From Gulosibacter sediminis (GTDB lineage: Bacteria; Actinomycetota; Actinomycetes; Actinomycetales; Microbacteriaceae), in the NCBI RefSeq assembly GCF_023370115.1, contig NZ_CP097160.1:62001-126000 (forward strand): a DNA stretch of 64,000 bases, read 5' to 3'. How positions within the stretch are numbered: position 1 is the stretch's first letter; each line of letters opens with the position of its first letter. Both the position numbers and the translations under genes were made by a program. Below are positions 9,965 to 56,032 of the stretch, piece by piece. Below the pieces are notes generated by a model. It ran no database searches. It saw only the letters and a program-made list of their open reading frames with translations, and was not told where the DNA came from.

Positions 9965-11232
9965 CGAAACACGTGGTCGTCGTCGGCGGCGGGCTCATCG
10001 GGCTCTGCACCAGTTACTGGCTACTGCGGGCCGGGCACCGCGTGACGATCGTCGAGCGCAGCCACCTCGGGGCCGGCGCCGCGACCGGGAACGCGGGCGA
10101 GCTGACGCCGCAGATGGTCGCGCCCCTTGCCTCGAGCAACACCGCGCGCGACATCGTGTCGGGTCTGTTCTCGACGAACTCGTACCTCTCTATTGCGCCG
10201 CTCAAGCTGCCGCAGCTCGCGGGCTTCGGCCTCGGCTTCCTCGCCTCCTCGCTGCCGCGGCAGCGGGCGAAGGGCGATGCGGCCCTCGCGCAGTTCCTGC
10301 CGCACATGCTGCCGAGTCTCGAGGCGATGGCCGAGGACGGCGTCGACACCTCGGGTGGCGGCAGCGGCTACCTCATGACCGCGCGCGATGAGCCGACGCT
10401 GCTTGCCGCCCACGCGCTCTATGCCGACCGCGCCACTCGTGGCTGGGCCGAGGCGCCGGGTGAGCCGCTTTCGGGTGCCTCGCTGCGCGCCGCCGAGCCC
10501 GCGCTCACTCCCGAGACTGAGTACGGCTTCATGCTGCCCGGCGAGTTCTCACTTGACCCCGTGACGTTCGTCGCGAGCCTCATCGCACGCGTCGAGGAGC
10601 TCGGGGCCGAGGTGCGCACGGGCCTCGAGGCCGAGCGGCTCGGCTCGGGCGCATCCGTCATCAGCCGAGACGAGGATGCGCGCGAGGTCGAGGTGCGCGG
10701 CGACCGCGTCGTACTCGCCTCGGGAGCCTGGACCACCGGGCTGCTGCGCCGCTCGGGCATCTTCTGCGCCGCATCCGTCACCGCGGGGAAGGGGTACAGC
10801 TTCACGGTGCCGGTCGAGCGGATGCCCGCGACGCTCGTGCACTCGATGGACCTCCACTGCGTCGCGATTCCGATGCACGGGCGCCTGCGCATCGTCGGCA
10901 TGATGGAGTTCGACGGCATGCCTGAGCGCACGAACGTCGACCGCTTCGACGTGCTCGCTGGCTTCGCCTCGCAGGTGATCGCGGGCGCCGACTGGGATGC
11001 CCGCACCGACGAATGGATGGGCCCGCGTCCGATGACCTCAGACGGCCTGCCGCTGCTCGGGCGGCTGCCGGGCCGCGATGAGGTGATCGTCGCGGCGGGC
11101 CACAATATGCACGGGCTGTCGCTCGGGCCGCTCACGGGGCAGATCGTGACCGACCTCGTGGCTGGGCGCGAGCCGGGGGTCGACGGGTGGCCGTTTGACC
11201 TGGGGCCGTTCGCGGTGCAGCGCCTGCTCTAG
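9961..11232 (+). CDS. FAD-dependent D-amino-acid dehydrogenase-like oxidoreductase (DadA family)
   Basis: DAO/DadA-family flavoprotein, 423 residues. The N-terminal dinucleotide fold is VVVVGGGLIGLCTSYWLLRAG followed by the Glu that binds ribose (IVERS) and GNAGELTPQ, the DadA-type second FAD segment. The C-terminal part contains GPRPMTSDGLPLLG and AAGHNMHGLSLGPLTG, the FAD-binding end typical of DadA. It would oxidise D-amino acids (or glycine/sarcosine-type secondary amines) to 2-oxo acids. Last gene of the rightward operon; its stop overlaps the convergent VOC gene stop by 4 nt. Confidence 0.88.
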   Translation: MTKHVVVVGGGLIGLCTSYWLLRAGHRVTIVERSHLGAGAATGNAGELTPQMVAPLASSNTARDIVSGLFSTNSYLSIAPLKLPQLAGFGLGFLASSLPRQRAKGDAALAQFLPHMLPSLEAMAEDGVDTSGGGSGYLMTARDEPTLLAAHALYADRATRGWAEAPGEPLSGASLRAAEPALTPETEYGFMLPGEFSLDPVTFVASLIARVEELGAEVRTGLEAERLGSGASVISRDEDAREVEVRGDRVVLASGAWTTGLLRRSGIFCAASVTAGKGYSFTVPVERMPATLVHSMDLHCVAIPMHGRLRIVGMMEFDGMPERTNVDRFDVLAGFASQVIAGADWDARTDEWMGPRPMTSDGLPLLGRLPGRDEVIVAAGHNMHGLSLGPLTGQIVTDLVAGREPGVDGWPFDLGPFAVQRLL

Positions 11233-42220: not shown

Positions 42221-42412
42221 ATGTTCAAGAACTTCACCCCCAAGCGTCTCGTGGCCGTAGCTCTTCTCGCTGGCGGTTTCGCCATCGCCGCCCCGGTCGT
42301 CGCCAACGCCGACGAGCAGCCCGCCGTGGTCAGCGCCGAGTCGGTCAGCGTCGACATCCACACCGACCTCGTCACGACCGGCGCGGTGTGGGAGTGGGAC
42401 GAGTGGGAATAA
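42221..42412 (+). CDS. Small secreted peptide at the start of the RiPP cluster
   Basis: 63 residues with a clear Sec signal: basic MFKNFTPKRL, hydrophobic core VAVALLAGGFAIAAPVV, and an AxA-type cleavage site (VANADEQ). The predicted mature part is about 33 residues, acidic, and ends TGAVWEWDEWE with three Trp alternating with acids. There is no Cys. I do not recognise a family. It may be an immunity or signalling peptide, or a separate exported bioactive peptide. It has a good ribosome site (AAGGCAAGAA) and lies 51 bp before the ABC ATPase on the same strand. Confidence 0.75.
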   Translation: MFKNFTPKRLVAVALLAGGFAIAAPVVANADEQPAVVSAESVSVDIHTDLVTTGAVWEWDEWE

Positions 42413-42463
42413 GCCCGCACCGCTGACTGACGAACCGACACCCCTACCGAGAAAGGAACTTCG

Positions 42464-43480
42464 ATGACCACGCTGGAATCACCCGCCCGGGCAACCACTG
42501 CCGCGTCGAACGAACAGACCCCAACCCCCGCAGCCATCGTCATCGAAGACCTTGCCAAGCAGTACGGTGACTTCACCGCGGTGAACGACGTCACCCTCAC
42601 GATCGAAACCGGCGAGGTGTTCGGGCTGCTCGGCCCCAATGGCGCCGGCAAGACCACGACCATCGACCTCATCGTCGGCCTGCGCGAAGCCACTTCGGGC
42701 AGCGTGCGAGTGCTCGGCCTCGACCCGGTGCGCGACCGCGCCGCCTTCACCGCCCGCGTCGCGGTGCAGCCGCAGGAGGCCAACCTCTACGACACCCTGA
42801 CGGTGCGCGAGACCCTCACCCTCTTCGCCTCGTTCCACGACGCGCCCCGCCCCGTGCAGGAAATGGCCGAGCTCATCGGCCTCGACGACCAACTCAAGGT
42901 GCGCGCCAAGCGGCTCTCGGGCGGCCAACGCCGCCGCCTCCTGCTCGGCGTCGCGCTCATCGGCGACCCGGATGTGGTGGTGCTGGATGAGCCCTCCGCC
43001 GGCCTCGACCCTTCCGCACGCCACGAGCTCTGGGATCTCATCAGCAGCCTCCGCGGCCGCGGCACCACGGTGCTGCTCACGACCCACCACATGGATGAGG
43101 CGAGCGCCCTCTGCGACCGCGTCGCGATCATGGTCGACGGCGGCATCGTCGCCATCGACGCCCCCGACGAACTCGTGCGAGCCCGCTCCCAGGGCCGCCG
43201 CGTCACCTTCACCGTGCCAGCCGGCACCGACCTCGCCGCGCTCGACGAACTCGGCGTGACCGACATCGCCGTCAACGACACCGCCGAACTGCGGCGCGTG
43301 GCCGTCTCGACTACCGACGCCGACGAACTCGTCGTGCAGCTCGCCCAGCGGGGCATTCGCACCCGCGACCTCGCCATCGAAACGCAGAGCCTCGAGGACG
43401 TCTTCCTCGAACTCGCCAGCACGAGCGACTACTCCTCGCGCATCACCGAACCCCGCGGAAAGGGAAGGAAGAACCGATGA
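42464..43480 (+). CDS. ABC-2-type exporter ATP-binding protein (RiPP export/immunity)
   Basis: Cytoplasmic ATPase, 338 residues, of a DrrA/NodI-like exporter. Motifs are intact: Walker A GPNGAGKTTT (~63-72), Q-loop VAVQPQEANLYDTLTV, signature LSGGQRRR, Walker B VVVLDEPSAGLDP and H-loop LTTHHMDEA. A C-terminal domain (~235-338) is typical of drug/antibiotic exporters. The gene has an AAAGGA ribosome site and overlaps the permease (ATGA). Its position at the head of the cluster suggests export of the mature peptide and producer self-protection. Confidence 0.93.
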   Translation: MTTLESPARATTAASNEQTPTPAAIVIEDLAKQYGDFTAVNDVTLTIETGEVFGLLGPNGAGKTTTIDLIVGLREATSGSVRVLGLDPVRDRAAFTARVAVQPQEANLYDTLTVRETLTLFASFHDAPRPVQEMAELIGLDDQLKVRAKRLSGGQRRRLLLGVALIGDPDVVVLDEPSAGLDPSARHELWDLISSLRGRGTTVLLTTHHMDEASALCDRVAIMVDGGIVAIDAPDELVRARSQGRRVTFTVPAGTDLAALDELGVTDIAVNDTAELRRVAVSTTDADELVVQLAQRGIRTRDLAIETQSLEDVFLELASTSDYSSRITEPRGKGRKNR

Positions 43481-44535
43481 CCACGCTCGCCCCAGAAACG
43501 CGCACCTCGCCACCGAAACGGTCGGCCTTCACCGAACTTGCCGCGACCAACGCCCGCGAACTCGTGCGCGACGGCAAAACGATGTTCTTCATCGTCTTCT
43601 TCCCGCTCTTCTTCCTCGGCCTCTTCGGCTTCCTCGGGTTCATGATCGACAGCCAGAACGACGCGCCCGTCGTCGAGGTGGTCGCCGGCGAGCAGAGCGA
43701 CGCGATCCTCGCCGAGCTCGACGCCGCGGGCATCGACGCCACCATCACCGACGACGCGACGCCGGCCGACGGCACCACCGCGATCGTCACGGCCAACGGC
43801 GACACGGCGCAGGTCGTGCTCGACTCTGAGGCGCAACCACAGTGGCGACCGCTCGTCGATGCCGTCTCCTCCGTGGGCATCGCCAAACCCGACATTGCCA
43901 TTGGCTACGAGGATGGTAGCGCCGTGTTCGACCCGCTCAAGAACAGCCTCGCGTCGATCGTGATGGTCTCGTTCCTCACGCTCGCCCTGCTCGGCACCGC
44001 CGTGCCGGTCGTCGGCCAACGCGGCAAGGGCATCCTGCGGGTGCTCGGCACGACGCCGCTCAAGCGCTCCACCTACATCGCCGCCCAGTCGCCCGCCCGC
44101 CTCCTCATCGGGGTGCTGCAGCTCGCCATCGTGGTGGTCGTCACCGCAGTGCTCGGCTACCTGCGCCCCTCCGCGATCCCGGGCCTCGTCATCACCGCCC
44201 TGCTCGGCCTCGCCATGCTCTTCGCGATCGGCTACCTCATCGGCTCCCGGGCCCGAAACCCCGAGTCCACCACGACGGTCGTCTCACTGCTCATCCCGGT
44301 CGCCCTGATGCTCTCCGGCTCGATCTTTCCGCTCACGATGTTCCCGCAGGCCTTCGCCGACGCGGTGCAGTGGCTGCCCACGACGGTGCTCGCGAACGCC
44401 CTCTCGGTCGACCTCGTCGGCGCCGACACCGGCATCGCGAGCTGGGTCTACTGGCTCTACCTCGCCGGCGTCGGCATCGTCGCCGCCGTGCTCGCCGGCC
44501 TCGCCTTCCGCTGGGACCAGGGGGAGCAGCGATGA
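43477..44535 (+). CDS. ABC-2-type exporter permease
   Basis: Membrane partner of the preceding ATPase, 352 residues. A first helix (FFIVFFPLFFLGLFGFLGFM) is followed by an extracytoplasmic domain of ~120 residues. Five more helices come next, with the ABC-2 landmarks GKGILRVLGTTPLKRSTYI (cytoplasmic coupling loop) and MLSGSIFPLTMFPQAF near the last helices. This is the DrrB/YhhJ-like layout common in RiPP clusters. It overlaps the YcaO gene by ATGA, so exporter and modification genes are coupled. Confidence 0.92.
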   Translation: MTTLAPETRTSPPKRSAFTELAATNARELVRDGKTMFFIVFFPLFFLGLFGFLGFMIDSQNDAPVVEVVAGEQSDAILAELDAAGIDATITDDATPADGTTAIVTANGDTAQVVLDSEAQPQWRPLVDAVSSVGIAKPDIAIGYEDGSAVFDPLKNSLASIVMVSFLTLALLGTAVPVVGQRGKGILRVLGTTPLKRSTYIAAQSPARLLIGVLQLAIVVVVTAVLGYLRPSAIPGLVITALLGLAMLFAIGYLIGSRARNPESTTTVVSLLIPVALMLSGSIFPLTMFPQAFADAVQWLPTTVLANALSVDLVGADTGIASWVYWLYLAGVGIVAAVLAGLAFRWDQGEQR

Positions 44536-45875
44536 GCACCAACACCACCACCTCGACCCAGACCCAGCTCGGCGGCCTCGCCCAGCTCGACACCCTCGTC
44601 GGCCCCTACGGCGTCATCAACGGCGTCAACCGCCTGCCGAACCACCCGGGCGAGCCCGCCTTCCCGATCTACGTTGCCGGCCTCGGCGACCTGACGCCCC
44701 TAAGCGCAAACGTGCACGAGTCGACCGGCGGCGCCTCAACCCGCGGCACGATCGACGGCGCCGGCGGCGGTCTCGACGAAGAGAAGGCCTCGCGCCTCTG
44801 TCTCGCCGAAGCGATCGAGCGCTACGCCTCCTGCTTCGTGCCCGAGGACGAGCTGCTCTGGGCGAGCGCCGACGAACTCGGCGCCGAGGCGGTCGACCTC
44901 ACCCGCTTCCCCGAGTGCTCCGCCACAGAGCTCGCCAACCCGCGCTCGTTCATGGCGCCGATCGACACCGCGGCGCGCATCCGCTGGGTGCGAGGCTGGT
45001 CGCTCACCGAGGGCCGCGCGAAGTGGGTGCCGGCCGTGAGCACCTGGCTGCACATCAACGCCCGCACCCACGCCGAACGCTTCACCTCGCCGATCTCGAC
45101 CGGCTGCGCCACCCACACCTCGCTCACCCAGGCGATCATCAATGGCCTCGCCGAGGTCGTCGAGCGCGACTCGATCGCCCTCACCTGGTTGCAGCGCATC
45201 TCGTGGCCGAAGCTCGAGATCGACGTCGACGACGAGCGCCTCGCGCCGTTCCGCCGCCGATACGAGCGCAGCCACGTCACCACCCACTTCTTCGACGCGA
45301 CGACCGACACGGGCATCCCGACCTTCTACTCGATCGACGTCACGCCCGACAACGAGGTGCTCGGCCAGCTGGTCATGTGCAACTCGTCGCTCGACCCGGT
45401 CGACTCGGTCGCGAAGATGTACCGCGAGTCCGCCTCCTCCCGCATCGCCATGCAGTCGAGCCGCGAGCAGCCGAGCGAGGTCGACGAGTTCGTCTCGGTC
45501 TTCCACGGCGCGAGCTACATGGGCGCCCCCGAGCGCCGCAGCGAGTTCGACTTCCTCCTCAACTCGACGACGAGCCGCAAGCTCTCCGAGATCCCCGACC
45601 TCACGACGGGCGACCCCGAGACCGAGCTGCAGGAAATGGTGCGCCGGCTCGCCGCCATCGACGCCGAGGTGCTCGTGGTCGAGATCACGACCGCCGAGGC
45701 GCGGGCCGCCGGGTTCCGCGTCGTGCGGGTCATCGTGCCCGAGCTCATGCCGCTCTCCTTCGTCCACACCGCGCGCTACCTCGCGCATCCCCGCCTCTAC
45801 GAGGCACCCGCCAAGCTCGGCTACCCCGTCGCAGACGAGCCGAACATCAACCCGCTGCCGCAGCCCTTCGCCTGA
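44532..45875 (+). CDS. YcaO-domain azoline-forming cyclodehydratase
   Basis: ATP-dependent cyclodehydratase that turns Cys/Ser/Thr of a precursor into thiazolines or oxazolines, 447 residues. YcaO ATP/Mg-binding elements are in order: GGLDEEKASRLCLAEAIERYA region (~79-99, E..AEAIER) and TGCATHTSLTQAIINGLAEV (~190-209) followed by VERDS. EITTAEARAAGFRVVRVIVP comes next, and the C-terminus ends in NPLPQPFA, the Pro-rich tail typical of azoline-forming YcaO proteins. There is no fused partner domain; the E1-like/RRE function is encoded by the next two genes. ATG 44532 overlaps the permease stop. Confidence 0.93.
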   Translation: MSTNTTTSTQTQLGGLAQLDTLVGPYGVINGVNRLPNHPGEPAFPIYVAGLGDLTPLSANVHESTGGASTRGTIDGAGGGLDEEKASRLCLAEAIERYASCFVPEDELLWASADELGAEAVDLTRFPECSATELANPRSFMAPIDTAARIRWVRGWSLTEGRAKWVPAVSTWLHINARTHAERFTSPISTGCATHTSLTQAIINGLAEVVERDSIALTWLQRISWPKLEIDVDDERLAPFRRRYERSHVTTHFFDATTDTGIPTFYSIDVTPDNEVLGQLVMCNSSLDPVDSVAKMYRESASSRIAMQSSREQPSEVDEFVSVFHGASYMGAPERRSEFDFLLNSTTSRKLSEIPDLTTGDPETELQEMVRRLAAIDAEVLVVEITTAEARAAGFRVVRVIVPELMPLSFVHTARYLAHPRLYEAPAKLGYPVADEPNINPLPQPFA

Positions 45876-45900
45876 ATCGCGAGCAAGAAAGGAACCACCA

Positions 45901-46607
45901 TGCGTGTGCACATTCTCACCACCGGCCCCGCAGGCCACGCGATCGGCGACCAGCTCAGCGCAGCCCTCCGCACCACCGGCGACCAGGTCATCGCGACCGA
46001 GATCACCTCCGACGCGAGCATCGACGCCTCGTTCTGGCCCACCGCCGACTTCCGCATCGTCGCCGCCTGGCGTGACAGCGCCGCCCTCCTCGAAGCGGTT
46101 GACCGGGTCGCCCACGAGGCCGGCACGCCCTACACGCAGATCGTGCTCGAGCACCCGCGCCTTCGGGTCGGCCCGACCATCGTGCCGGGCGGCAGCGGCG
46201 GCCCCGCCGCGACCGAGGGCGGCTGCCACCGCTGCTTCACGAAGCGGCAGCGCCAGCACAACCCCGGCGTCGAGCGCGCATCCGCCCTCTGGGCCCGCTA
46301 CGCGGCCGAGCCGGATGCTGGCCCGCAGGGTTACCTTCCGAGTCACGTCGCGCTCGCCACGGCGATCGTCGACCGCGTGATTGCGGCGGCCCGGGCCGGC
46401 CACCTCGAGACCGAGCGCAACCTCGTCACCCTCGTGCACCTGCTGCAGGGCGGCATCTCGCGCAGCGAGCTGATTCCGCTGCACGGCTGCGACCGCTGCG
46501 GCATTCCGCAGCCCGACGCCAGCTGGCGCGAGCTCGAGCTCGAACTCGCCCACCTCGCCGTCGCCCCGAGCGGCGTCATCACCGAAGGGAGCCTGCACCG
46601 TGGCTAA
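45901..46607 (+). CDS. Cyclodehydratase partner fragment with a four-Cys zinc site
   Basis: 235 residues corresponding to the C-terminal part of the ocin-ThiF/TOMM leader-binding partner proteins. An N-terminal Rossmann-like segment (VHILTTGPAGHAIGDQLSAAL) is followed by GGCHRCF (Cys109/Cys112) and, 85 residues later, HGCDRCGIP (Cys197/Cys200), the paired CxxC zinc site of E1-like partners. In known thiopeptide and azole clusters this is one ~600-residue chain with an N-terminal RRE. Here the RRE is missing and appears fused to the next gene. It probably activates the YcaO enzyme. Confidence 0.8.
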
Positions 46608-48270
46608 CGGAGTACTCGGCGCCACCGCCATGAGCGTCGCCGCAAAGAATGACCCGCAGTTCCGCCTGCCGAAGCTGCCCCGCATCGCCCCCGGCATCGT
46701 CATCGTGCCGACCAACTCCGGAGTGCTCGTCGAGGGCGGCCCCACCCGACAGCTACTCGGCGGCCAGGGCGCACAGCGCGTCATGTCGCAGCTCGTGCCG
46801 CTGCTCGACGGCAGCCGCGACCTCGACACCCTCGCCCACGACTTCGGCGAAACCGAGGCAACCACGCACGCGGCGGTCTCGCTGCTCTACGCGAGCGGCC
46901 TGCTCGAGGATGCGCACGACGAGCCCGCGATCGACGCCGCGGGGTCGGCCGCCCACCTCTTCTACTCACGGTCGATCGACTCGACCCGCGTGAACCCCTC
47001 CGGCGCCCACGCCCTCGAGCGGCTACGGGCCTCGAAGCTCCACCTCGTCGCCGCGAACAACGACGCCGACGCGGCCCTCGCCGGCGCCATCGCGAAGCAG
47101 CTCGACGAGGGCGGCATCGGCCGGGTGACGATCTCGGAGCTCGGCGCCGAGGAGGCCACCGACGACGCACGCATCGCCGCCGCCGACCTCATCCTGCTCA
47201 TTGGCGACACCCCCGCGCTGCGCCGGGCGGCAGGGCTCGCGGTCGAGCACCACGTGCCGAGCTTCCCCGTCATCACCCGCGGCCGGCACGTCTACTACGG
47301 CCCGGTCATCGACGAGACCTACACCGCGAGCTTCGCCGAAATCGCCGGGCAGATCGCCGCCGAGGCCGTGACTCCCGCCGAGCGCGACGAACACGCCCTC
47401 GTGGCCGCGATCGTCACCGGCGACGTGCTCTCGCTGCGCTCCCGCGTCGGCGCGACCATGTCGAAGCAGTCGCTCATGCGGCTCGACCTCGCGACCCTCG
47501 AACAACAGGGGCTCGTCGCCTCCCGAATCACCCGCGACGGCATCCCGCTCGCCTACGCCTTCGAGGCCTCGACCGCCTTCGCGCCGCGCCACCTCAGCAA
47601 CCCGCGCGACCACCAGGTGCACTACAAGGAGTCGAACATCGCGCTCCAGCGCGAGTCGAAGCTCTGGCCGAGCGCCCCGAGCCTGCCGCTGCCGAGGCCG
47701 GCCCACCCCACCGTGGCGTGGCCCGAGCTCGACGCCCCGGCCGACGCGCCCGAGCTGCCCCTCGCAACGCTCACCGACGTCATCGTGCGCTCGGTCGGCA
47801 ACCGCAACCTCGGCACCCCGCTCGAGGGCAAGGTGCGGCGCTGGGCACCGAGCGGCGGCAACCTCGGCTCGGTGCAGGCGTACCTCATCGCGCGCCGCGT
47901 CGACGGCCTCGTGCCCGGCGTCTACGGCTACGACCGCGGCAGCGACGCGCTCGCGATGCTGCCCTGGGCCGACCCCGCCACCGCGCCCGCCGGCATCGAC
48001 CCCGAGGCCGACGCCGTGCTCATCTACACGGGCGCGCTAGCCCGAGTCGGCAGCAAGTACGCCGCCTTCTCGTGGCGCATCCTCCACCTCGACGCCGGCG
48101 TCGCGGTGCACCACACCCGGATGCTCGCGGCGGCCCACCACCTCGAGTCGCGCGCCGCAGGTGCCTGGGACGACGAGGCGATCGCTGACCTGCTCGCGAT
48201 CGACCAGGACGCCGAACCCATCACCGCCGTCGTCTCGCTGCGCACCGCCCCAGAAGGAGCCGAATCATGA
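46600..48270 (+). CDS. RRE-nitroreductase fusion (leader binding plus azoline dehydrogenase)
   Basis: A 556-residue fusion. Residues ~20-105 form a RiPP recognition element-like winged helix (FRLPKLPRIAPGIVIVPTNS...LLGGQGAQRVMSQLVPLLDG) as in the N-terminus of leader-binding cyclodehydratase partners. A Rossmann-like middle part spans ~120-260. Residues ~385-556 form a SagB-type FMN nitroreductase (RRWAPSGGNLGSVQAYLIAR, then RVDGLVPGVYGYD). Expected roles: bind precursor leaders and oxidise azolines to azoles. The start is GTG 46600 with AAGGGAG upstream, overlapping the preceding stop by 8 nt. This domain combination is unusual. Confidence 0.82.
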   Translation: MANGVLGATAMSVAAKNDPQFRLPKLPRIAPGIVIVPTNSGVLVEGGPTRQLLGGQGAQRVMSQLVPLLDGSRDLDTLAHDFGETEATTHAAVSLLYASGLLEDAHDEPAIDAAGSAAHLFYSRSIDSTRVNPSGAHALERLRASKLHLVAANNDADAALAGAIAKQLDEGGIGRVTISELGAEEATDDARIAAADLILLIGDTPALRRAAGLAVEHHVPSFPVITRGRHVYYGPVIDETYTASFAEIAGQIAAEAVTPAERDEHALVAAIVTGDVLSLRSRVGATMSKQSLMRLDLATLEQQGLVASRITRDGIPLAYAFEASTAFAPRHLSNPRDHQVHYKESNIALQRESKLWPSAPSLPLPRPAHPTVAWPELDAPADAPELPLATLTDVIVRSVGNRNLGTPLEGKVRRWAPSGGNLGSVQAYLIARRVDGLVPGVYGYDRGSDALAMLPWADPATAPAGIDPEADAVLIYTGALARVGSKYAAFSWRILHLDAGVAVHHTRMLAAAHHLESRAAGAWDDEAIADLLAIDQDAEPITAVVSLRTAPEGAES

Positions 48271-49016
48271 CCACCACGCCGTTCACCACCGTCACCGAAC
48301 TTCGCGCCCAGCACGAGCTCGTCACCGAATTGCAGCGGGCCGTGCGCCTCGACGCCGACCGCGTCACCCAGCTGCCGCATCCGCTCGGCGAGCGCGACCG
48401 CCTCACCGAGGGCGTGCTCGACACGACGACGATCGCCCCGGTGCGCGTCGAGGCCCCGCTGCCCGAGCGCGAGCGCACCTTCGACGAGGTGCTCGAGCAG
48501 CGCGTCTCGGACCGCTTCTACAGCGACGCGACCGTGGCACCCGAGGCGCTCGCCCGCATCGTGCGAGCCGCCCGCGAGTTCGACCGGTCGACGTGGACGG
48601 AAGATGCGCAGGCCGACCTCGGCCTCGACTTCCTCGTCGCCGCCCGCAGCGTCGACGGCGCCGCCCCGGCGATCTACCGCCTCGTCGACGACACCTTCAT
48701 GCCACTCGCCCCACTGCCCGAGCGCGGCGCGGAGGATCTCGTACTCCAGATCGAGTTCGCCTACGCACCCGTGATCCTCATCGCCCTCGCGCCGTTCGCC
48801 AATCTGCTCGCCCGCTGGGGCGACCACGGCGAACGCCTCGCGAACACCCGTGCCGCTGCGGCCATCTCCGCCGCCCTGCACGAGGCCGCCTCGCTCGGCA
48901 TCGCGGGAAGCCCCTTCGCGGGCTTCCTCACCTCAGGACTCCGCCGGCTCATTGACGCCGACGGTTACGCGAACGCCCAAATGTTCGCGGCCTCATTCGG
49001 CCACCCGGCCGCGTGA
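48267..49016 (+). CDS. Second nitroreductase-like protein
   Basis: A 249-residue protein resembling a SagB-type nitroreductase domain: RVSDRFYSDATVAPEALARI in the FMN-phosphate position, DLGLDFLVAARSVDGAAPAIY, and a C-terminal SAALHEAASLGIAGSPFAG. It is more diverged than the preceding fusion. Nitroreductases are dimers, so it may form a heterodimer with the fusion's C-terminal domain or act on a different azoline. Coupled to the fusion gene by ATGA and directly upstream of the precursor genes. Confidence 0.78.
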   Translation: MTTTPFTTVTELRAQHELVTELQRAVRLDADRVTQLPHPLGERDRLTEGVLDTTTIAPVRVEAPLPERERTFDEVLEQRVSDRFYSDATVAPEALARIVRAAREFDRSTWTEDAQADLGLDFLVAARSVDGAAPAIYRLVDDTFMPLAPLPERGAEDLVLQIEFAYAPVILIALAPFANLLARWGDHGERLANTRAAAAISAALHEAASLGIAGSPFAGFLTSGLRRLIDADGYANAQMFAASFGHPAA

Positions 49017-49066
49017 GTTCACCCAGAAACACCACATCACCCAACCGAAAGAACAGGACACCCATC

Positions 49067-49246
49067 ATGGCAACCACCATCGCTTCGCCCGACGACTTCT
49101 TCTCGACCGAGCTCGAGGGCATCGAGGTCGGCGAGCTCCCCACCGACGCCGCGCTCGCCTCGCTCTCGAGCGGCTCGACCGCTGGCAGCGCCTCGTGCCC
49201 CGCCTCGTCGGCGAGCACGCTCGGCACCGTCGGCTCCTGGGGCTAA
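49067..49246 (+). CDS. RiPP precursor peptide 1
   Basis: A 59-residue precursor. The acidic leader (~1-32) contains DDFFSTELEGIEVGELPTDA. The core is Ser/Thr/Gly/Ala-rich with AGSASCPAS (~39-47) and ends TLGTVGSWG. One Cys (44), followed by Pro, is the main thiazole candidate; about ten Ser/Thr could become oxazoles or dehydroamino acids. ATG 49067 has AGGA about nine bases upstream. Between the nitroreductase-like gene and a sibling precursor, as expected for the substrate of this cluster. Confidence 0.88.
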   Translation: MATTIASPDDFFSTELEGIEVGELPTDAALASLSSGSTAGSASCPASSASTLGTVGSWG

Positions 49247-49300
49247 GCCCCGCTCAATCCAACAACCACCAACACCAAGAAACAGAAAGCAGAACGCACC

Positions 49301-49483
49301 ATGGCGAACAACACCAACCCGATCAACGACTTCATCGCAACCGACCTCGACGCCGACCTCGCGATCGACGCCCTCGACAGCCAGACCGCCCTCGGCACCT
49401 GGGGCTCGGCCGGAACCGCCGGCAGCGCATCCTGCCCCGCCTCGACCGCCAGCTCGACCTCGACCGCTTCGTCGGTCGGCTAA
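49301..49483 (+). CDS. RiPP precursor peptide 2
   Basis: A 60-residue precursor. The leader (~1-33) is acidic (NDFIATDLDADLAIDALDSQ); the core region GTWGSAGTAGSASCPASTA carries the shared AGSASCPAS motif and continues with a Ser/Thr-rich run ending SSTSTASSVG. Cys45 is its only Cys. It shares the 10-residue stretch TAGSASCPAS with precursor 1, at nearly the same offset, while leaders differ. 54 nt separate it from precursor 1. Confidence 0.88.
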   Translation: MANNTNPINDFIATDLDADLAIDALDSQTALGTWGSAGTAGSASCPASTASSTSTASSVG

Positions 49484-49492
49484 CAAAACGAA

Positions 49493-49531
49493 ATGGCCAC
49501 CTCGGTCAACGGCAATCGACGAGGCGACCAT
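49493..49531 (+). other. Imperfect hairpin between precursors 2 and 3
   Basis: 12-nt arms ATGGCCACCTCG and CGAGGCGACCAT with two mismatches and a 15-nt loop, 9 nt after the precursor 2 stop. It could attenuate, or stabilise the upstream precursor mRNA. No T-tract follows. Confidence 0.45.
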
Positions 49532-49586
49532 CTCAATAAATCGCACCACCACTTTACCCACAGCACTTCTCGAAAGGAAACAAAAA

Positions 49587-49766
49587 ATGTCTGAAATCAA
49601 CGGAGAGACCCAGGACCTGTTCGCCGAGGACATCGCGGTTGACGCGCTCGACAACGAGGTGGCCGCCGGCTTCGCCAGCGCCGCCTGCGCTGCCAGCGCC
49701 GGCAGTGCATCCTGCCCGGCCGCAAGCGTTTCGACCGCGGGCAGCTTCTCGTCGGTCGGGAACTAA
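49587..49766 (+). CDS. RiPP precursor peptide 3
   Basis: A 59-residue precursor, too short for many gene callers. The leader is acidic (GETQDLFAEDIAVDALDNEV); the core region begins around AAGFASAACAASAGSASCPA and ends SVSTAGSFSSVGN. It has two Cys: Cys34 and the family Cys43 in GSASCPA. The AxxLD leader element IAVDALD is close to AIDALD in precursor 2. It has the best ribosome site of the three (AAAGGAAACAAAAA before ATG). A 10-bp hairpin follows before the protease gene. Confidence 0.88.
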   Translation: MSEINGETQDLFAEDIAVDALDNEVAAGFASAACAASAGSASCPAASVSTAGSFSSVGN

Positions 49767-49796
49767 CCGCACCCACATCGAGCACACCGATCCGGA

Positions 49797-49833
49797 GGGG
49801 CGAGGGCCGCGGCACCCGCCACACCCTCGCCCC
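49797..49833 (+). terminator. Hairpin after the precursor genes (partial terminator)
   Basis: A perfect 10-bp stem, GGGGCGAGGG with CCCTCGCCCC, with a 17-nt loop, 30 nt after precursor 3 and 34 nt before the protease start. No T-run follows, so read-through is likely. It would give more precursor than enzyme mRNA. Confidence 0.6.
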
Positions 49834-49867
49834 ACCGGGCCGGAGCCCGACCGAAACGAAGGACATC

Positions 49868-51016
49868 ATGAGCACCAACACCATCACCTCCCGTCACACC
49901 GGCGGCGACCACGACGACGCCCTGTCGTGGTTTCGCGAGGCCCGCCCGCAGCTGCGGGACGATGCCACGCTCATGGGCGGTCTCGACGATCGCCCGCTGC
50001 TGTTCATCGAATCGACGGGCCGCTACGTCTCCCTCGGCAGCAGCGTGGTGCCGCTGCTGCCCTGCTTCGACGGCACCGCGACGGGCGACGAACTCGCCGA
50101 CCGCTTCGCCGCGCAGGGCGAGCACGACCGCGAGCTCGTCGCCGACAAACTCGCGAAGATCACCCACGGCCTGCGCCAGGCAGGCGCGCTCACCGAGGAG
50201 CCCGCGCAGCTCGGCGGCCGCGCCGGCGTCGCCCGCTTCATGCGGCGCGAACACCTGCTGCGCCTGCCGCTGACCCGAAAGATCGGCGACTTCCTCGAAC
50301 CGCCCGTTGCGCTCCTGCGCAAGATTCCCGGCAAGCACCTCGCCCTCGTCTGGAGCCTGCTCGCCCTCGTCGGCCTCGCGATCGGCGGCTACGCCATCGC
50401 CACCGCCGGCTCGCAGTGGCAGCCGCCCCAGTACCTCTGGCTGCTCTACCCGCTCATGTTCACGCAGATCGCGTTCCACGAGCTCTCCCACGCGCTCGTC
50501 TGCCAGTACCTCCGTGCACCCGTCCGCGAGGCCGGCGTCGGCCTCATGCTCTACGTCATGCCCGTCGGCTACGTCGACCGTACCGACGCCTACCGGGTGC
50601 GCGACCGCAAGTCGCGCGCGTTCATTGCCCTCGCCGGGCCCGTCAACGACCAGCTCTGGTTCGGCGTCACCGGCATCATCGCCCTCACCAACCAGGGCAC
50701 CGAGCTCGGCAACTTCGCCTTCACCTACCTCATCTTCCAGGCGTTCCTCACGCTCATGAACTTCAACCCCGTCTCGCCCTCCGACGGCTACCACATGGTG
50801 AGCGCGCTCTCGGGTGCGATCAACTTCCGCGGCCAGGCGCTCTCGTACCTCACGCACCTCGTGCTGCGCCTGCCGCTCACGCCCGAGCTCGAGCGCATCC
50901 CAACCAAGCGCCGCCGCTGGTTCGTCGCCTACGCCATCGCTTGCCTCGCGTTCTTCGCGGTGCTCGCGCTCGCGGTCGGCCGCACGGTGCTCACGGTGAT
51001 CGGGGCGCTCCAGTGA
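49868..51016 (+). CDS. RRE-M50 membrane metalloprotease (candidate leader peptidase)
   Basis: 382 residues: an N-terminal RRE/PqqD-like winged helix (~38-112, RPLLFIESTGRYVSLGSSVVPLLPCFDG, here split for length) followed by an M50 site-2-type protease. The zinc site HELSH is at ~204-208 within a membrane helix, and the distal Asp is in NFNPVSPSDGYH (~298-309), matching the NxxPxxxxDG motif. Several hydrophobic helices flank these. The RRE would recruit precursor leaders, making this the likely leader-cleaving enzyme at the membrane. Its stop overlaps the next gene's GTG. Confidence 0.85.
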   Translation: MSTNTITSRHTGGDHDDALSWFREARPQLRDDATLMGGLDDRPLLFIESTGRYVSLGSSVVPLLPCFDGTATGDELADRFAAQGEHDRELVADKLAKITHGLRQAGALTEEPAQLGGRAGVARFMRREHLLRLPLTRKIGDFLEPPVALLRKIPGKHLALVWSLLALVGLAIGGYAIATAGSQWQPPQYLWLLYPLMFTQIAFHELSHALVCQYLRAPVREAGVGLMLYVMPVGYVDRTDAYRVRDRKSRAFIALAGPVNDQLWFGVTGIIALTNQGTELGNFAFTYLIFQAFLTLMNFNPVSPSDGYHMVSALSGAINFRGQALSYLTHLVLRLPLTPELERIPTKRRRWFVAYAIACLAFFAVLALAVGRTVLTVIGALQ

Positions 51017-53463
51017 ACGAACAGCGCGCCACGACCGTCACCGCGGCGCCCGCGACGACCTGGCGCCTCGCGCACAGCGTCGACGAGGCCCTGCGCGTCG
51101 ACCGAGTCGCGGGCCTCCACACCGACCGCCTCCGCATCGCGATGCCCGAGAGCGACGAGTTGGCCGAGCGCCTCGAGACGCTCGCCGCCGAACTCGACAC
51201 CCTGCGCGAGCCCGTCAGCGAGCTGCTCTTCGCCCTCGTGCCGCAGCTCGAAGACGACAAGGAGCTGCGCCGCGCGGCCCTCGGCGCCCGCCGGCAGACG
51301 CAGAAGCCGGCGCCCAAGCCGCTCGAGGCGGCGGCGACGGATGCGCTGGCCGAGCAACTCGGCGACGCCGACGACCGCGCACGGTTGCGCCGCTGGGCCG
51401 AGCTGCTCGGCGAGCACGCGGCCGTAACGGCATCCGCCGAGGACACCTTCAAGCGCGAGCTCGCAGCGGCCACCGACACCCTCGAGGCCCTGCGCACCGA
51501 CGAGGAATTTCTCACCGCGGTCGCCGACGCGAGCCCCGCCTTCGCGGCCGCGCCGGGCAAGAACTCGCTCACGCCCACCCGGCACACGACCCGGAGCATC
51601 CTCGCCTACGCCGGCCGCTCGGCCTTCAAGCCGAGCCCGTTCGGCCGGCTCACCCGGGTCGGCTACGCGCAGGGCACGACAGCGCCCGACCGCGAGGTCG
51701 CCGAGATCTCGCACAGCTACGCCGCCGCCTGGCTCGACGTCATCGCCCGCGATGAATACGGCTGCCACTCGCTCGAGGTCGAGGCGCTCGACACCGGCGG
51801 ACTCGACCCCCGCGAGGCGCCCATCGCCGTCGGCCACCTCAGCGAGTCGACCGACTTCGTGTGGCGTCGCACCGCGACGGTGCAGCTGCGCGGCGAGTCC
51901 GAACTGCTCGACACCCTGCACCAGCTTGGTCGCATGAGCGTGCACGAGTTGCTCGAGCAGATCGGCGGCGAGCAGGCCTTCGATACCTACCTGCAGCTGC
52001 TCGACACCGGCCTCCTGCGCCCGGTCGCACCGTGGAGCGCGAGCGACCACGCCGCCCTCGTGACCCTCTGCGAACGACTCGAGTCGGCCGTGCCGCTGCA
52101 CCCGATTGCCGCCGAGCTTCGGGGCATCCTCGGCGACACCCGCGTGATGCTGCGAGCCCGCGGGCGCGAGCGAGGTCGCATCCGGGCCGAGCTGCAGCGC
52201 ACCGCCGAGCGCGCCCTCGCCTCGCGCGGGGTTGGCAAGGGTCGCCGCCGATTCGAGGTGTACCTCGATGTCGCCCCGCGCGAGGTGGCGCGACCCCTGC
52301 CGAGCGCGATTGTGCCCGAGCTCGATGCCTTCGCCGCCGAGTGCGCGCCGAAGGCCCGCACGGGGGCGTACCGCATCGTCGTCGACGACTTCGTCGCCCG
52401 CTATGGTGTCGGCGGCACGGCCCCCTCGCTCTGGGCCTGGTTGACCCGCGCCGGCCTCGATGACGGACTGCAGCAGCGATTCACCTCGGGCGAGGCCTCG
52501 GCTCCCGACGTCACCTCGCGCTCGCGCCCGCGCGGCGCCTCGATGCCCCGCCCGAGCGCCGTCTTCGCGCTGCAGCTCGCGGAGGGCAACGAACCGCTCG
52601 CGGTCATCAACCAGATCCTGCCCGGCCAGGGCGGCCTCGTCACCCGGTTCTCCCGACTGCACGACGGCCCCGACGGCCTCGGCGGTGGCATCCGCGACCG
52701 GGCCGAGGCCCTCACCGCACCCGCCGTGCCGTTCGAGGTCGTGCCCTCGGCCGACGTCAACGGCATGCAGGCGGCGGCCGCCGGCACGCTCGCGCCGCTC
52801 GTGTGGCCGACCGCGCAGCCGGTGCATGCGCATCCGGCCGACGCGGTGCGGGTCGACGCGCTGCGCGCGAGCCACGACCCCGCCAGCGACTCCATCATCA
52901 TTACGGATGCGCAGGGCATGGTGCGCGCGCCGCTCTACCTCGGGCTCGTGCCCGCGCACCTCGGTGACGGCCCCGAGCGCATCCTCTCGGTGCTCGCGGA
53001 CCCGTGGCACCGCCCCCGCGTCGGCATGCCGGTGTACCCGATCCTCGGCGACGCCGAGGAGATCCGGCAGTTCGCGCGCCGGCAGCACGGCGGTCTCGTG
53101 CTGCGCCGCGCCGCCTGGACCGTGCCGCTCGGTCAGCTGCCCGAGCATCCGGGTGACACGGCCGAGCTCGTGCGTGCCGTCGGCGCCTGGCGCCGAGCCC
53201 ACGGCATGCCGAACGAGGTGTTCGTGCGCGTCGTGCGCACCCGCATGAGCCTCGAGCCGAACGCCCGCAAGCCGGTGTGGATCGACCTGCGCAGCGCGCA
53301 CGCGATCGAGCACCTGTTCAGCCTCTTCGACGACGAGACGGCCGGCTTCGAGTTCACGGAAGCGCTGCCCGCCTCCGATGAGCACCCCCGCGGCGGCGAC
53401 GGTCGTCGCCGCGCCGTCGAACACCTGGTGTTCGTCGATTGGCAGGAAGGAGTCCCGAAGTGA
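51013..53463 (+). CDS. LanB-type dehydratase, glutamylation domain (split LanB, N-terminal half)
   Basis: Transfers Glu from Glu-tRNA to Ser/Thr hydroxyls of the precursor, the first half of dehydration. 816 residues of the LanB N-terminal family: the tRNA-binding/active-site stretch RHTTRSILAYAGRSAFKPSP followed by FGRLT (~190-214) is the best-conserved marker. KTGAYRIVVDDFVARYG-like and GQGGLVTRFSRLHDG segments mark the C-terminal part. The elimination domain is a separate gene, as in thiopeptide and goadsporin clusters. Start GTG 51013 (GTGA overlap) is used; the much longer open frame upstream is an overlap with the protease gene. Confidence 0.9.
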   Translation: MNEQRATTVTAAPATTWRLAHSVDEALRVDRVAGLHTDRLRIAMPESDELAERLETLAAELDTLREPVSELLFALVPQLEDDKELRRAALGARRQTQKPAPKPLEAAATDALAEQLGDADDRARLRRWAELLGEHAAVTASAEDTFKRELAAATDTLEALRTDEEFLTAVADASPAFAAAPGKNSLTPTRHTTRSILAYAGRSAFKPSPFGRLTRVGYAQGTTAPDREVAEISHSYAAAWLDVIARDEYGCHSLEVEALDTGGLDPREAPIAVGHLSESTDFVWRRTATVQLRGESELLDTLHQLGRMSVHELLEQIGGEQAFDTYLQLLDTGLLRPVAPWSASDHAALVTLCERLESAVPLHPIAAELRGILGDTRVMLRARGRERGRIRAELQRTAERALASRGVGKGRRRFEVYLDVAPREVARPLPSAIVPELDAFAAECAPKARTGAYRIVVDDFVARYGVGGTAPSLWAWLTRAGLDDGLQQRFTSGEASAPDVTSRSRPRGASMPRPSAVFALQLAEGNEPLAVINQILPGQGGLVTRFSRLHDGPDGLGGGIRDRAEALTAPAVPFEVVPSADVNGMQAAAAGTLAPLVWPTAQPVHAHPADAVRVDALRASHDPASDSIIITDAQGMVRAPLYLGLVPAHLGDGPERILSVLADPWHRPRVGMPVYPILGDAEEIRQFARRQHGGLVLRRAAWTVPLGQLPEHPGDTAELVRAVGAWRRAHGMPNEVFVRVVRTRMSLEPNARKPVWIDLRSAHAIEHLFSLFDDETAGFEFTEALPASDEHPRGGDGRRRAVEHLVFVDWQEGVPK

Positions 53464-54455
53464 CACTCTCCGCACCCCTCGCCGCGCCGCGGCTCGGCGA
53501 GGCCTCCCGCTGGTGGTTCGTCTGCCTCTACACGGGCGGCGTCAACGCGACCGACAACGTGCTCTCGGGCACGCTGCCGCCGCTGCTCGCCGATGCCCGA
53601 CGCACGGGCGCGAGCCGCTGGTTCTTCATCCGCTACTTCGACGAGCGCGGCCCGCACATCCGCCTGCGCGTGTTCGGGCCGGGGGAGTGCATGTCGCAGC
53701 TCGTGCGGGCGACCGCCGAGCTGCAGACACAGCTGCGGCGCACGGTCGAACGCTCGACGGGGGAGGACGTCGAGCTCGTGCCCGGCGCCGCGAGCGCCCT
53801 CACCGCCGGCGCCGATGTGCAGATCGGGGTCTACCCGAGCGTCTACGAGCCGGAAACCGTGAAGTACGGCGGCATCGAAGCAATGGACCTCGCGGAACGC
53901 CTCTTCGAGTTCTCGTCTGAGCTTGCCCTGTGGGCCGTGCAGACCCACGCGAAGGGCGACGCACGCGATCCGCTCGCCTCGCTGCTGCTCGCCGACACCG
54001 CCGGGTCGCTGCTGCTCGGCCGTGGGGCGCAGACCTGGTCGCAACGTCGCCGGCTTGGCTGGGCGAAGTACTGGTCGACCCACACCCGCTGGTGGACCGG
54101 TGCCGACCACGACGGGGGCCTCCTGCGCGACCAGCTCGAACTGCGGGCGCTCACCGAGCGCGACGACTTCTTCGACCGGATGCGCCGGGTCGCGATCGAC
54201 CCCGACGTCGATGCCTGGCGTCGGCGGTGGATCACCGCAGTCGACGACTACCTCGGCGCCGTCGCGCCGATCGGTGCAAACCGCACTCCGCAGCACCTGA
54301 CCTTTCATCACAGCCACATGTTGATGAACCGCCTCGGCTTCCTCCCGAAGGAAGAAGCCCTTCTCGGGCTCCATGCCCGCGCCTGGATCACCGAAGTGGT
54401 GCAGGGCGAACCCACCCGAAACCGAATCACCCCTCGAGGAAAGGACCTCTCATGA
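53460..54455 (+). CDS. LanB C-terminal-type protein (thiopeptide-type: glutamate elimination or cycloaddition)
   Basis: 331 residues of the thiopeptide-type SpaB_C/LanB elimination family: RWFFIRYFDERGPHIRLRVF (~53-71), ETVKYGGIEAMDLAERLFEF (~136-155, the RYGG-like motif of elimination domains) and TFHHSHMLMNRLG near the C-terminus. These residues favour glutamate elimination, giving dehydroalanine or dehydrobutyrine. The same fold also serves the [4+2] pyridine-forming enzymes of thiopeptides, and only one such protein is present here. GTG 53460 overlaps the upstream stop (GTGA). Confidence 0.87.
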   Translation: MTLSAPLAAPRLGEASRWWFVCLYTGGVNATDNVLSGTLPPLLADARRTGASRWFFIRYFDERGPHIRLRVFGPGECMSQLVRATAELQTQLRRTVERSTGEDVELVPGAASALTAGADVQIGVYPSVYEPETVKYGGIEAMDLAERLFEFSSELALWAVQTHAKGDARDPLASLLLADTAGSLLLGRGAQTWSQRRRLGWAKYWSTHTRWWTGADHDGGLLRDQLELRALTERDDFFDRMRRVAIDPDVDAWRRRWITAVDDYLGAVAPIGANRTPQHLTFHHSHMLMNRLGFLPKEEALLGLHARAWITEVVQGEPTRNRITPRGKDLS

Positions 54456-54814
54456 CCAAGAACCGCTCAGCCCAGCTCACCATCGGCACCATCGGTGTGC
54501 TCGCCTTCGCCGCCGCGGCGCTTTCGACCATCGTCACCCAGCAGGTGCTGCCGCTCGCCGTCATCGGCCTGCTCGTCGGCGTCGTCGCCACCGTCGTCGT
54601 CGTTGTCGGCTTCGTGCGCCAGCGTCAGGTGACGACCGGCATGGTCACGTCGCTCGTGACGCCCGCCGTCGCAATCGCCGCGCTGACGCCGATGTTCCAG
54701 CTCGGCGTCGTGGTGCCGATCGCTGTGGTCTCGGGCATCTTCGCCGTCGAGATCATCGTGCTGCTCGCCGTCGGCGCCAAGCGCCCCGCGAAGGGCCAGC
54801 TGCGCCATGGCTAA
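54452..54814 (+). CDS. Small hydrophobic membrane protein in the RiPP cluster (candidate immunity)
   Basis: 120 residues, about four transmembrane helices (IGTIGVLAFAAAALSTIV; VIGLLVGVVATVVVVVGFV; TSLVTPAVAIAALTPMF; VSGIFAVEIIVLLAVG) with short basic loops. No family recognised. It is translationally coupled (ATGA overlap upstream, 8-nt overlap downstream), placing it firmly in the cluster. Immunity, or assistance to export or the membrane protease, are the plausible roles. Confidence 0.72.
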   Translation: MTKNRSAQLTIGTIGVLAFAAAALSTIVTQQVLPLAVIGLLVGVVATVVVVVGFVRQRQVTTGMVTSLVTPAVAIAALTPMFQLGVVVPIAVVSGIFAVEIIVLLAVGAKRPAKGQLRHG

Positions 54815-54968
54815 TCACTCCGACACCTCCGACGCGGAGCGCGCGTGGGCCTGGCAACTCTGGCCCGATGATGACGCGCCGCCGCGACCGAAACCCCCGC
54901 CGAACCACGACAACCAAGCTGACGAGGCCTCGGAAGACGAGTCGACCCCGGGTCAGCCCAAAGTCTGA
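54807..54968 (+). CDS. Small acidic hydrophilic protein at the end of the RiPP operon
   Basis: 53 residues, MANHSDTSDAERAWAWQLWP followed by a Pro- and Asp/Glu-rich tail (PPRPKPPPNHDNQADEASED). It overlaps the membrane-protein gene by 8 nt, so it has coding support beyond length. There is no signal peptide and no Cys. The Trp cluster WAWQLW resembles the Trp-rich tail of the secreted peptide at 42221 in composition only. Function unknown; a gene-caller false negative is likely because of its size. Confidence 0.55.
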   Translation: MANHSDTSDAERAWAWQLWPDDDAPPRPKPPPNHDNQADEASEDESTPGQPKV

Positions 54969-54977
54969 ACATCACGC

Positions 54978-55047
54978 GCCCCCTTCGTCGCCGCAACTCG
55001 GCGTGGCTACTATGGCCACGACACCAGCGGCGAATGAAGGGGGCGTG
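54978..55047. promoter_or_regulatory. Inverted-repeat region over the regulator's ribosome site
   Basis: Long-range arms GCCCCCTTC (54978-54986) and GAAGGGGGC (55036-55044) are perfectly complementary and extended by TCGCC/GGCGA. The 3' arm is the ribosome site of the regulator gene. Nested inside is CGTGGC/GCCACG (55002-55007, 55015-55020) with a TACTAT box (55008-55013) that could be a -10. It may be an operator or, if transcription starts upstream, a structure hiding the ribosome site. Confidence 0.5.
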
Positions 55048-55048
55048 G

Positions 55049-56032
55049 ATGCTGAGCAAGCACGCCACGACGCTCTACGAATACGTGAGCTCGCAGGCGG
55101 ACGCCACCGTGCAACAGGCGTCAGTATCGCTCGCACTGCGCATGACCGAGACCGAGAAGGCCTGGCGAGAGCTCGCCGACCGCCGCCTCATCACCCCCGC
55201 GTATGAGGGCGCCGAGACGTACATCGCGGTCGCGCCCGAGGTGGCGCTCGTGCAACTCGTTGATGACGACGAGCGCCGCATCCAAGAACTCCGCTCGGCC
55301 GTCGCCGACCGCCGCGGTGAGCTGCTCCCGCTCGGCCCGCTTTACCGGGATGCGCGCGACAGCCTGCTCGCGAGCAGCCAGGTCGAGGTGGTCGAGAGCC
55401 GCGACACGGTGCAGCAGCTCATCCTCGACTTCGGCCGCCGCGTCACGAGCGAAGTGCTCATCGTGCAGCCCGGCCGCGGCTCGACCGTCGAGCTGCAAGA
55501 GGAGTCCGACCTCAAAGACGCCGAGCTGCTCGAGGCGGGCATCTCGCGCCGCACCCTGATGCACGACCGCCGGCGCGACCACGTGCCGACGCGGCGCTCG
55601 GTCGAGCGGCTCGGCGAGCTCGGCGCCGAGTTCCGCACCGTGCCGGCGCTGCCGGTGCGGCTGCTCGTGTTCGACCGCAACAAGGCGATCGTCTCGCGGC
55701 ACCGCGAAAAGAACGACCCGGCCGCGCTCGTCATTCGCGACCCCGACGTCGCGATGGTGTTCGCGCGCCTCTTCGACACGGTGTGGGACTACGCGACCCC
55801 GTTCGAGATCTGCCCAGACGAGGCCGAGTCGGCGGATGCGGTGAAGCTGTCGGCGACGCAGCAGGCGATTCTCGAGGGCCTCTCGATCGGCATGACCGAC
55901 GAGGCCCTCGCGAGCCGCCTGCAGATGAGCGTGCGCACGTGCCGGCGCCACATCTCGCAGCTGTTCGAGATCCTCGGCGCCGACAGCCGATTCCAGGCCG
56001 GCGTGCTCGCCGCCCGCCGCGGCTGGCTCTAG
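55049..56032 (+). CDS. Transcriptional regulator with TrmB-like N-terminus and LuxR-type C-terminal HTH
   Basis: A 327-residue regulator. The N-terminal ~70 residues (HATTLYEYVSSQADATVQQA, then MTETEKAWRELADRRLI) resemble a TrmB-like winged helix. A middle domain (~105-250) holds RRDHVPTRRSVERLGELGAE and RLLVFDRNKAIVSRH. Residues ~262-325 form a LuxR-type HTH (LSATQQAILEGLSIGMTDEA to SRFQAGVLAARRGWL). Proteins of this layout accompany thiopeptide and lanthipeptide clusters. ATG 55049 is chosen: GAAGGGGG lies upstream at good spacing; ATG 55034 has none. It likely controls the cluster. Confidence 0.83.
   Translation: MLSKHATTLYEYVSSQADATVQQASVSLALRMTETEKAWRELADRRLITPAYEGAETYIAVAPEVALVQLVDDDERRIQELRSAVADRRGELLPLGPLYRDARDSLLASSQVEVVESRDTVQQLILDFGRRVTSEVLIVQPGRGSTVELQEESDLKDAELLEAGISRRTLMHDRRRDHVPTRRSVERLGELGAEFRTVPALPVRLLVFDRNKAIVSRHREKNDPAALVIRDPDVAMVFARLFDTVWDYATPFEICPDEAESADAVKLSATQQAILEGLSIGMTDEALASRLQMSVRTCRRHISQLFEILGADSRFQAGVLAARRGWL

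Follow-up and report, generated by a model that had tools for sequence, protein, structure and literature searches.

A predicted goadsporin-type gene cluster for three linear azole/dehydroamino-acid peptides in Gulosibacter sediminis

We analyzed a 64,000-nucleotide stretch of the Gulosibacter sediminis genome (contig NZ_CP097160.1, positions 62,001 to 126,000; hereafter the window), which contains at 42221..56032 a cluster for ribosomally synthesized and post-translationally modified peptides (RiPPs). The cluster very probably encodes a goadsporin-type pathway, in which three paralogous precursors (A1, A2, and A3) would give linear azole/dehydroamino-acid peptides. The linear class is proposed because no [4+2] cycloaddition enzyme was found in the cluster or genome and because the precursor cores display goadsporin-type spacing. 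As in the goadsporin type, a YcaO enzyme is accompanied by a SagB-type dehydrogenase, a GodF/GodG-like split LanB is present without a cycloaddition enzyme, and X1-(S/T/C)-X2 motifs recur at about every third residue, many of them preceded by Ser. In each of the three predicted products, about nine azoles would be accompanied by three to five dehydroamino acids. A previous reading of the sequence alone had proposed a complete azole/dehydroamino-acid RiPP cluster; its completeness is borne out by the gene content, and the product type is likewise upheld.

Spacing of the predicted azole sites

All three precursors match NCBIfam NF033482 above its cut-off of 25 bits. The name of this model, "thiocillin family RiPP", is misleading, because it takes in precursors from genomes in which no pyridine synthase was detected. 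The sequence-only reading had noted three near-identical core motifs. The SASCPA motif is indeed common to all three, but the cores are otherwise those of distinct paralogs.

Using a hidden Markov model started from the three window peptides, we collected 80 precursor open reading frames (ORFs) from 22 loci, including the window, L079, and two plasmids, together with a thiopeptide control (L027). A single Cys-Pro anchor was present in 67 of the 80. After 25 ORFs were dropped (13 without the anchor, the control included, and 12 duplicates), 55 distinct cores were counted. The pattern comprises five Ser/Thr/Cys sites at three-residue steps, one four-residue step, and four further sites. At the predicted positions −12, −9, −6, −3, +4, +7, +10, and +13 from the anchor Cys, 415 of 437 residues were Ser/Thr/Cys, compared with a mean of 215 and a maximum of 245 in 2000 shuffles. 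Ser/Thr/Cys made up 25 of 490 residues directly after the sites and 272 of 492 directly before them. The preceding residue was Ser, Gly, or Ala in 421 of 470 cases, which fits the X1-(S/T/C)-X2 rule with restricted X1 described for the GodD/E substrate (PMC5303826).

Cores A1, A2, and A3 each fill nine of nine sites, with Ser/Thr directly before a site five, five, and three times, respectively. In many cases Gly or Ala, and not Ser, precedes a predicted azole site. When the 80 ORFs were searched without the anchor, the longest train averaged 8.95 sites, versus 4.49 in shuffled sequences (p < 0.01 in 53 of 80). The 13 anchorless ORFs averaged 8.6 versus 4.8, with p values of 0.023 and < 0.004 for two Anoxybacillus peptides and 0.017 for a Paracoccus peptide, whose sequence lacks the four-residue step. 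The thiopeptide control precursor from L027 showed no such pattern (train of 5, p 0.26). Three to five precursors are encoded in 20 of the 22 loci and one in the other two. At 9600-10750, L079 (G825) encodes five related precursors that show the every-third-residue pattern; its enzymes stand in a different order.

This every-third-residue rule for Ser/Thr/Cys is new in the present analysis. The timing of, and choice between, azole and dehydroalanine (Dha) formation at Ser/Thr have been described as not yet known (PMC10676384). With 55 distinct natural cores obeying a strict site rule, that choice becomes directly testable.

LanB pair and search for a pyridine synthase

Both LanB halves are present in all 20 related loci extracted. 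The N-half matches PF04738 weakly (36 bits), and its sole match in a PDB sequence search (E 0.1) was 9jhq, a protein of goadsporin biosynthesis (E 2.5e-25 across 45-793). The C-half scores 124 bits against PF14028, 100 bits against TIGR03891 ("thiopeptide-type"), and only 20.5 bits against NF045556, a pyridine-synthase model with a curated cut-off of 325 bits. Of the six C-half family members tested, all match TIGR03891 and none scores above 23.4 bits against NF045556. Two control cyclases score 259 bits (L027) and 146 bits (L085, from a Streptomyces plasmid), both themselves below the curated cut-off. The first control, a pyridine-synthase-like protein, belongs to a thiopeptide-type cluster from the same bacterial family as the window (7467-12181 of L027, genome G263). 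The HxRxR and H(M/L)xxNR motifs, which play a catalytic role in NisB, are present in all 21 family rows, and HxRxR aligns to NisB. H(M/L)xxNR is missing from both control cyclases and HxRxR from one. By family and motifs, the C-half is elimination-like.

An NF045556 profile search gave no match in eight of ten genomes, the window genome (G000) included; the positives were the control genome G263 (259 bits) and G1050 (93 bits, ~8 kb from its cluster). The window genome encodes exactly one PF14028 protein, as do 7 of 20 other genomes (G211, G221, G351, G1046, G1083, G817, and G863). In the remainder, between two and six are encoded, most of them at other genomic locations. Searches with NF045556 and PF14028 thus located no [4+2] pyridine synthase in the cluster or genome.

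These data bear on whether the product could instead be a macrocyclic thiopeptide (pyritide), with two Dha residues joined by [4+2] cycloaddition through an unrecognized enzyme or through this LanB C-half. Thiopeptides also employ YcaO, SagB, and split LanB proteins, all found here, and the labels of NF033482 and TIGR03891 point in the same direction. Set against this are the low NF045556 scores in six family members relative to the (also sub-threshold) cyclases, the absence of a match in G000 and seven of nine other genomes, the retention of H(M/L)xxNR across the family, and a period-3 core that differs from the L027 control. We consider a macrocyclic thiopeptide very unlikely. The term "thiopeptide-like", used in the sequence-only reading, applies to the shared enzyme families only; the goadsporin-type spacing and the failure to find a [4+2] enzyme in cluster or genome resolve the class, left open in that reading, toward linear.

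Another alternative holds that the LanB pair is idle, leaving an azole-only product, or that its Dha residues are attacked by Cys to form lanthionines. The frequency of Gly or Ala before the azole sites would suit such a product. However, the LanB halves and their conserved residues persist across the related loci, and the one or two Cys in each window core all occupy predicted azole sites. Moreover, a LANC-like match, the mark of a class I lanthipeptide, was not found among the cluster proteins, to which that search was confined. Together, these observations leave this alternative only a slim chance.

Gene organization, distribution, and selection

The 42.2-56.0 kb region is one co-directional gene run (Table 1). 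Each gene that the sequence-only reading had placed between exporter and regulator was recovered with the same direction and boundaries. As that reading had also stated, starts mostly overlap, with eight adjacent pairs doing so under our choice of start codons (43477/43480, 44532/44535, 46600/46607, 48267/48270, 51013/51016, 53460/53463, 54452/54455, and 54807/54814). One protein had been described as a nitroreductase fused to a RiPP recognition element (RRE). Both the RRE and the nitroreductase-type SagB domain are present, and the same chain also holds an E1-like domain.

Table 1. Features of the predicted cluster, in window coordinates (Pfam scan of 16 cluster proteins)
Feature	Position	Strand	Evidence or remark
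63-aa ORF, secretion-signal-like	42221..42412	+	possible cluster member; C-terminal tail VWEWDEWE
ABC exporter ATPase	42464..43480	+	PF00005, DrrA-like
ABC-2 exporter permease	43477..44535	+	PF12698
YcaO cyclodehydratase (predicted azoline formation)	44532..45875	+	TIGR03604, 317 bits (above cut-off 219)
E1-like cyclodehydratase partner, Cys4 site, apparently without RRE	45900..46607	+	TIGR03882, 34.9 bits (slightly below cut-off 36.9)
RRE + E1-like + SagB dehydrogenase fusion (predicted leader binding, azoline oxidation)	46600..48270	+	TIGR03605, 68.7 bits (below cut-off 78.4)
Second nitroreductase-family flavoenzyme	48267..49016	+	PF00881
Precursor A1	49067..49246	+	NF033482, 54 bits; predicted core residues 31-59
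Precursor A2	49301..49483	+	NF033482, 59 bits; predicted core residues 32-60
Precursor A3	49587..49766	+	NF033482, 49 bits; predicted core residues 30-59
RRE + site-2-type M50 protease (predicted leader removal)	49868..51016	+	PF02163
LanB N-half (Glu-tRNA-dependent glutamylation, by homology)	51013..53463	+	PF04738; 9jhq match
LanB C-half, elimination-like	53460..54455	+	PF14028, TIGR03891
Small membrane protein, fast evolving; putative immunity	54452..54814	+	60% identity in G211
Small soluble protein, fast evolving	54807..54968	+	78% identity in G211
LuxR-type regulator	55034..56032	+	PF00196 GerE

In the proposed pathway, the RRE of the RRE-E1-SagB protein would hold the leader while YcaO and the two E1-like chains cyclize the Ser, Thr, or Cys at each of nine fixed core sites, taking a four-residue step over Cys-Pro. 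SagB would then oxidize the azolines to azoles. The LanB N-half is predicted to glutamylate, and the C-half to eliminate at, Ser (and some Thr), in most cases where the next residue is an azole, which would produce Dha-azole-X repeats. The RRE-site-2 protease (S2P) would cleave off the leader close to the first azole site, and the ABC-2 pair would export the three products as linear chains of about 29-30 residues each. We counted the RRE and protease folds as support for the goadsporin-type assignment. The YcaO sequence matches LynD/MusD/TruD in the PDB, and each residue of its C-terminal PQPFA is conserved in no fewer than 19 of the 20 rows compared; the two CxxC pairs of the E1-like partner are present in 20 of 20. 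The second nitroreductase gave no match in a PDB sequence search at E 0.01. On Paracoccus pAMI4 (L086 12923-15265), SagB and the second nitroreductase apparently form one 780-aa chain, hinting at joint action. The leader-binding protease and leader-binding E1-SagB fusion, if they act as predicted, could serve as engineering parts.

Of 398 genomes from the bacterial family, 10 contain PF14028, among them the window genome. The same gene run occurs in G211 (Pseudoclavibacter faecalis) and, from exporter through LanB C-half, in G221 (Microbacteriaceae), whereas G351 has a divergent form with a single precursor and another gene order. The precursor family matched 4 of 396 genomes in a phylum sample (3 over cut-off) and 27 of 392 (20 over cut-off) in one large-genome actinobacterial genus, probably Streptomyces. 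Of these 27, we examined 17 (G568 and 16 more; 19 regions) and found the enzyme set (YcaO, E1, SagB, nitroreductase, M50, and both LanB halves) in 15, including G1083, whose contig ends before SagB. The exporter pair was not found beside the enzyme set in six of the 15. Of the other two genomes, G825 has the related precursors and different enzyme order described above for L079, and G1053 showed no window protein, nor did the second regions of G1050 and G1137. Anoxybacillus amylolyticus and Paracoccus aminophilus also carry the enzyme set, each on an annotated plasmid. Precursor genes sit between those for the nitroreductase and the protease at most loci; at six (L071-L075 and L077), they come after the LanB C-half.

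For the three precursors, comparison of the window with G211 gave dN/dS values (the nonsynonymous-to-synonymous rate ratio) of 0.11-0.24, indicating purifying selection; the two enzymes tested gave 0.16-0.17. Coupled with conservation of the enzyme set over long distances, this argues that the cluster is not a chance assembly. The small membrane protein (dN/dS 0.62, few changes), the small soluble protein (0.78 on 18 changed codons), and the 63-aa ORF (0.58, few changes) evolve faster, which might suit immunity or lineage-specific parts; the membrane protein is our immunity candidate. The 63-aa ORF also lies upstream of the exporter in G211, with 67% identity, an identical VWEWDEWE tail, and a divergent middle; no profile matched it over any cut-off.

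Nine genomes of the genus lack a close YcaO, and six of these were inspected. Five of the six, the more distant ones (Pseudoclavibacter regions), have purQ adjoining an EamA gene and no cluster there. In the near-identical G377 (99% identical PurQ), only a broken regulator remnant remains between these genes (927-1715 of L101, G377:C64, corresponding to window 55034-56032). These sites suggest that the cluster is gained and lost as a whole. The G377 remnant could also be taken to mean that the window holds a decaying or silent island that makes no product, but the open reading frames and low dN/dS values of the precursors and the two tested enzymes make this very unlikely.

A broader proposal, which we put forward tentatively and with more doubt than confidence, is a linear RiPP family spanning three phyla in which all cores follow a common azole ruler, typically five sites, one four-residue step, and four more sites, and in which sibling peptides act together. 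If true, sibling sets kept as orthologs across species would constitute a multi-component azole peptide system.

Comparison with known systems

Several points weigh against the goadsporin-type assignment. The precursor model was seeded from the window, and the site offsets were taken from the same related sequences that were later counted. A2 fits two frames after Cys-Pro, the third peptide of L026 fits also without the four-residue step, and the L079 cores lack that step. In the LanB C-half, the KYGG motif has Lys at the position of Arg in NisB and varies within the family, five rows having HYYGS and three still other forms. The proposed scheme assigns no step to the second nitroreductase. 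Pfam detected no domains of the GodB peptidase-transporter or GodH acetyltransferase in the 16 cluster proteins. Goadsporin biosynthesis involves an extra Ffh-type self-resistance gene, and no second Ffh was found here: each of 15 genomes, that of the window included, gave a single SRP_SPB match.

The azoles of goadsporin, two of which we take to be at positions 12 and 18, follow a spacing of 3, 3, 4, 3, 3 (with those two positions assumed), like the window cores. The others are at T2, T5, C8, and S15, with Dha at 4 and 14 (PMC5303826). The god cluster of Streptomyces sp. TP-A0584 further resembles the window in its azole-forming YcaO, dehydrogenase, and split LanB GodF/GodG, in azoles mostly at every third residue, and in Dha just before an azole (PMC5303826); no cycloaddition protein is described for it (PMC4603692). 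Goadsporin differs in having one precursor with a 19-residue core, six azoles, and two Dha, compared with three precursors and nine sites in the window, as well as the transporter-peptidase GodB and the acetyltransferase GodH (PMC5303826). Its cyclodehydratase is fused (PMC4603692), whereas the window YcaO is discrete. Conversely, the RRE-E1-SagB protein, second nitroreductase, and RRE-S2P protease set the window apart from goadsporin.

Thiopeptides/pyritides such as thiocillin, thiomuracin, and lactazole share YcaO, dehydrogenase, and split LanB, but the window has no detectable pyridine synthase and its core pattern is unlike that of control L027. Carnazolamide (dehydrazoles) and nostatin A also combine azoles with Dha just before azoles (PMC10676384, PMC11583998), but have nitrile-hydratase-type leaders, and the carnazolamide dehydratase is LanM-like rather than a split LanB. 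Dha-azole-X blocks occur in nostatin A and also, with fewer Dha, in goadsporin, spongiicolazolicins, and phazolicin (PMC11583998).

The sequence-only reading had considered the cluster apparently undescribed. No paper on it in this genus was found in the open-licence literature; its precursor family, however, already has an NCBIfam model, the enzymes occur together in many genomes, and the goadsporin-type family probably includes the published spongiicolazolicins. Spongiicolazolicins A and B from Streptomyces sp. CWH03 have 29 and 28 residues, and no antibacterial activity was reported for them (PMC8838263). They contain Dha-azole-X blocks (PMC11583998) and are called goadsporin-related (PMC10676384). 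Cleavage before a Gly close to the first site would leave cores of 28 (5) or 29 (14) residues in 19 of the 24 precursors from L071-L075 and L077. One of these loci, L074 (G1157; 7,180,417-base genome), encodes four precursors with cores of 28, 29, 29, and 29 residues, and may belong to a spongiicolazolicin producer. We think it likely that the window cluster falls into the same subgroup as the spongiicolazolicins, whose lengths match these relatives' cores if the latter are cut at a Gly. In that case, the cluster would be a further member of that subgroup; relative to goadsporin, it is a distinct variant.

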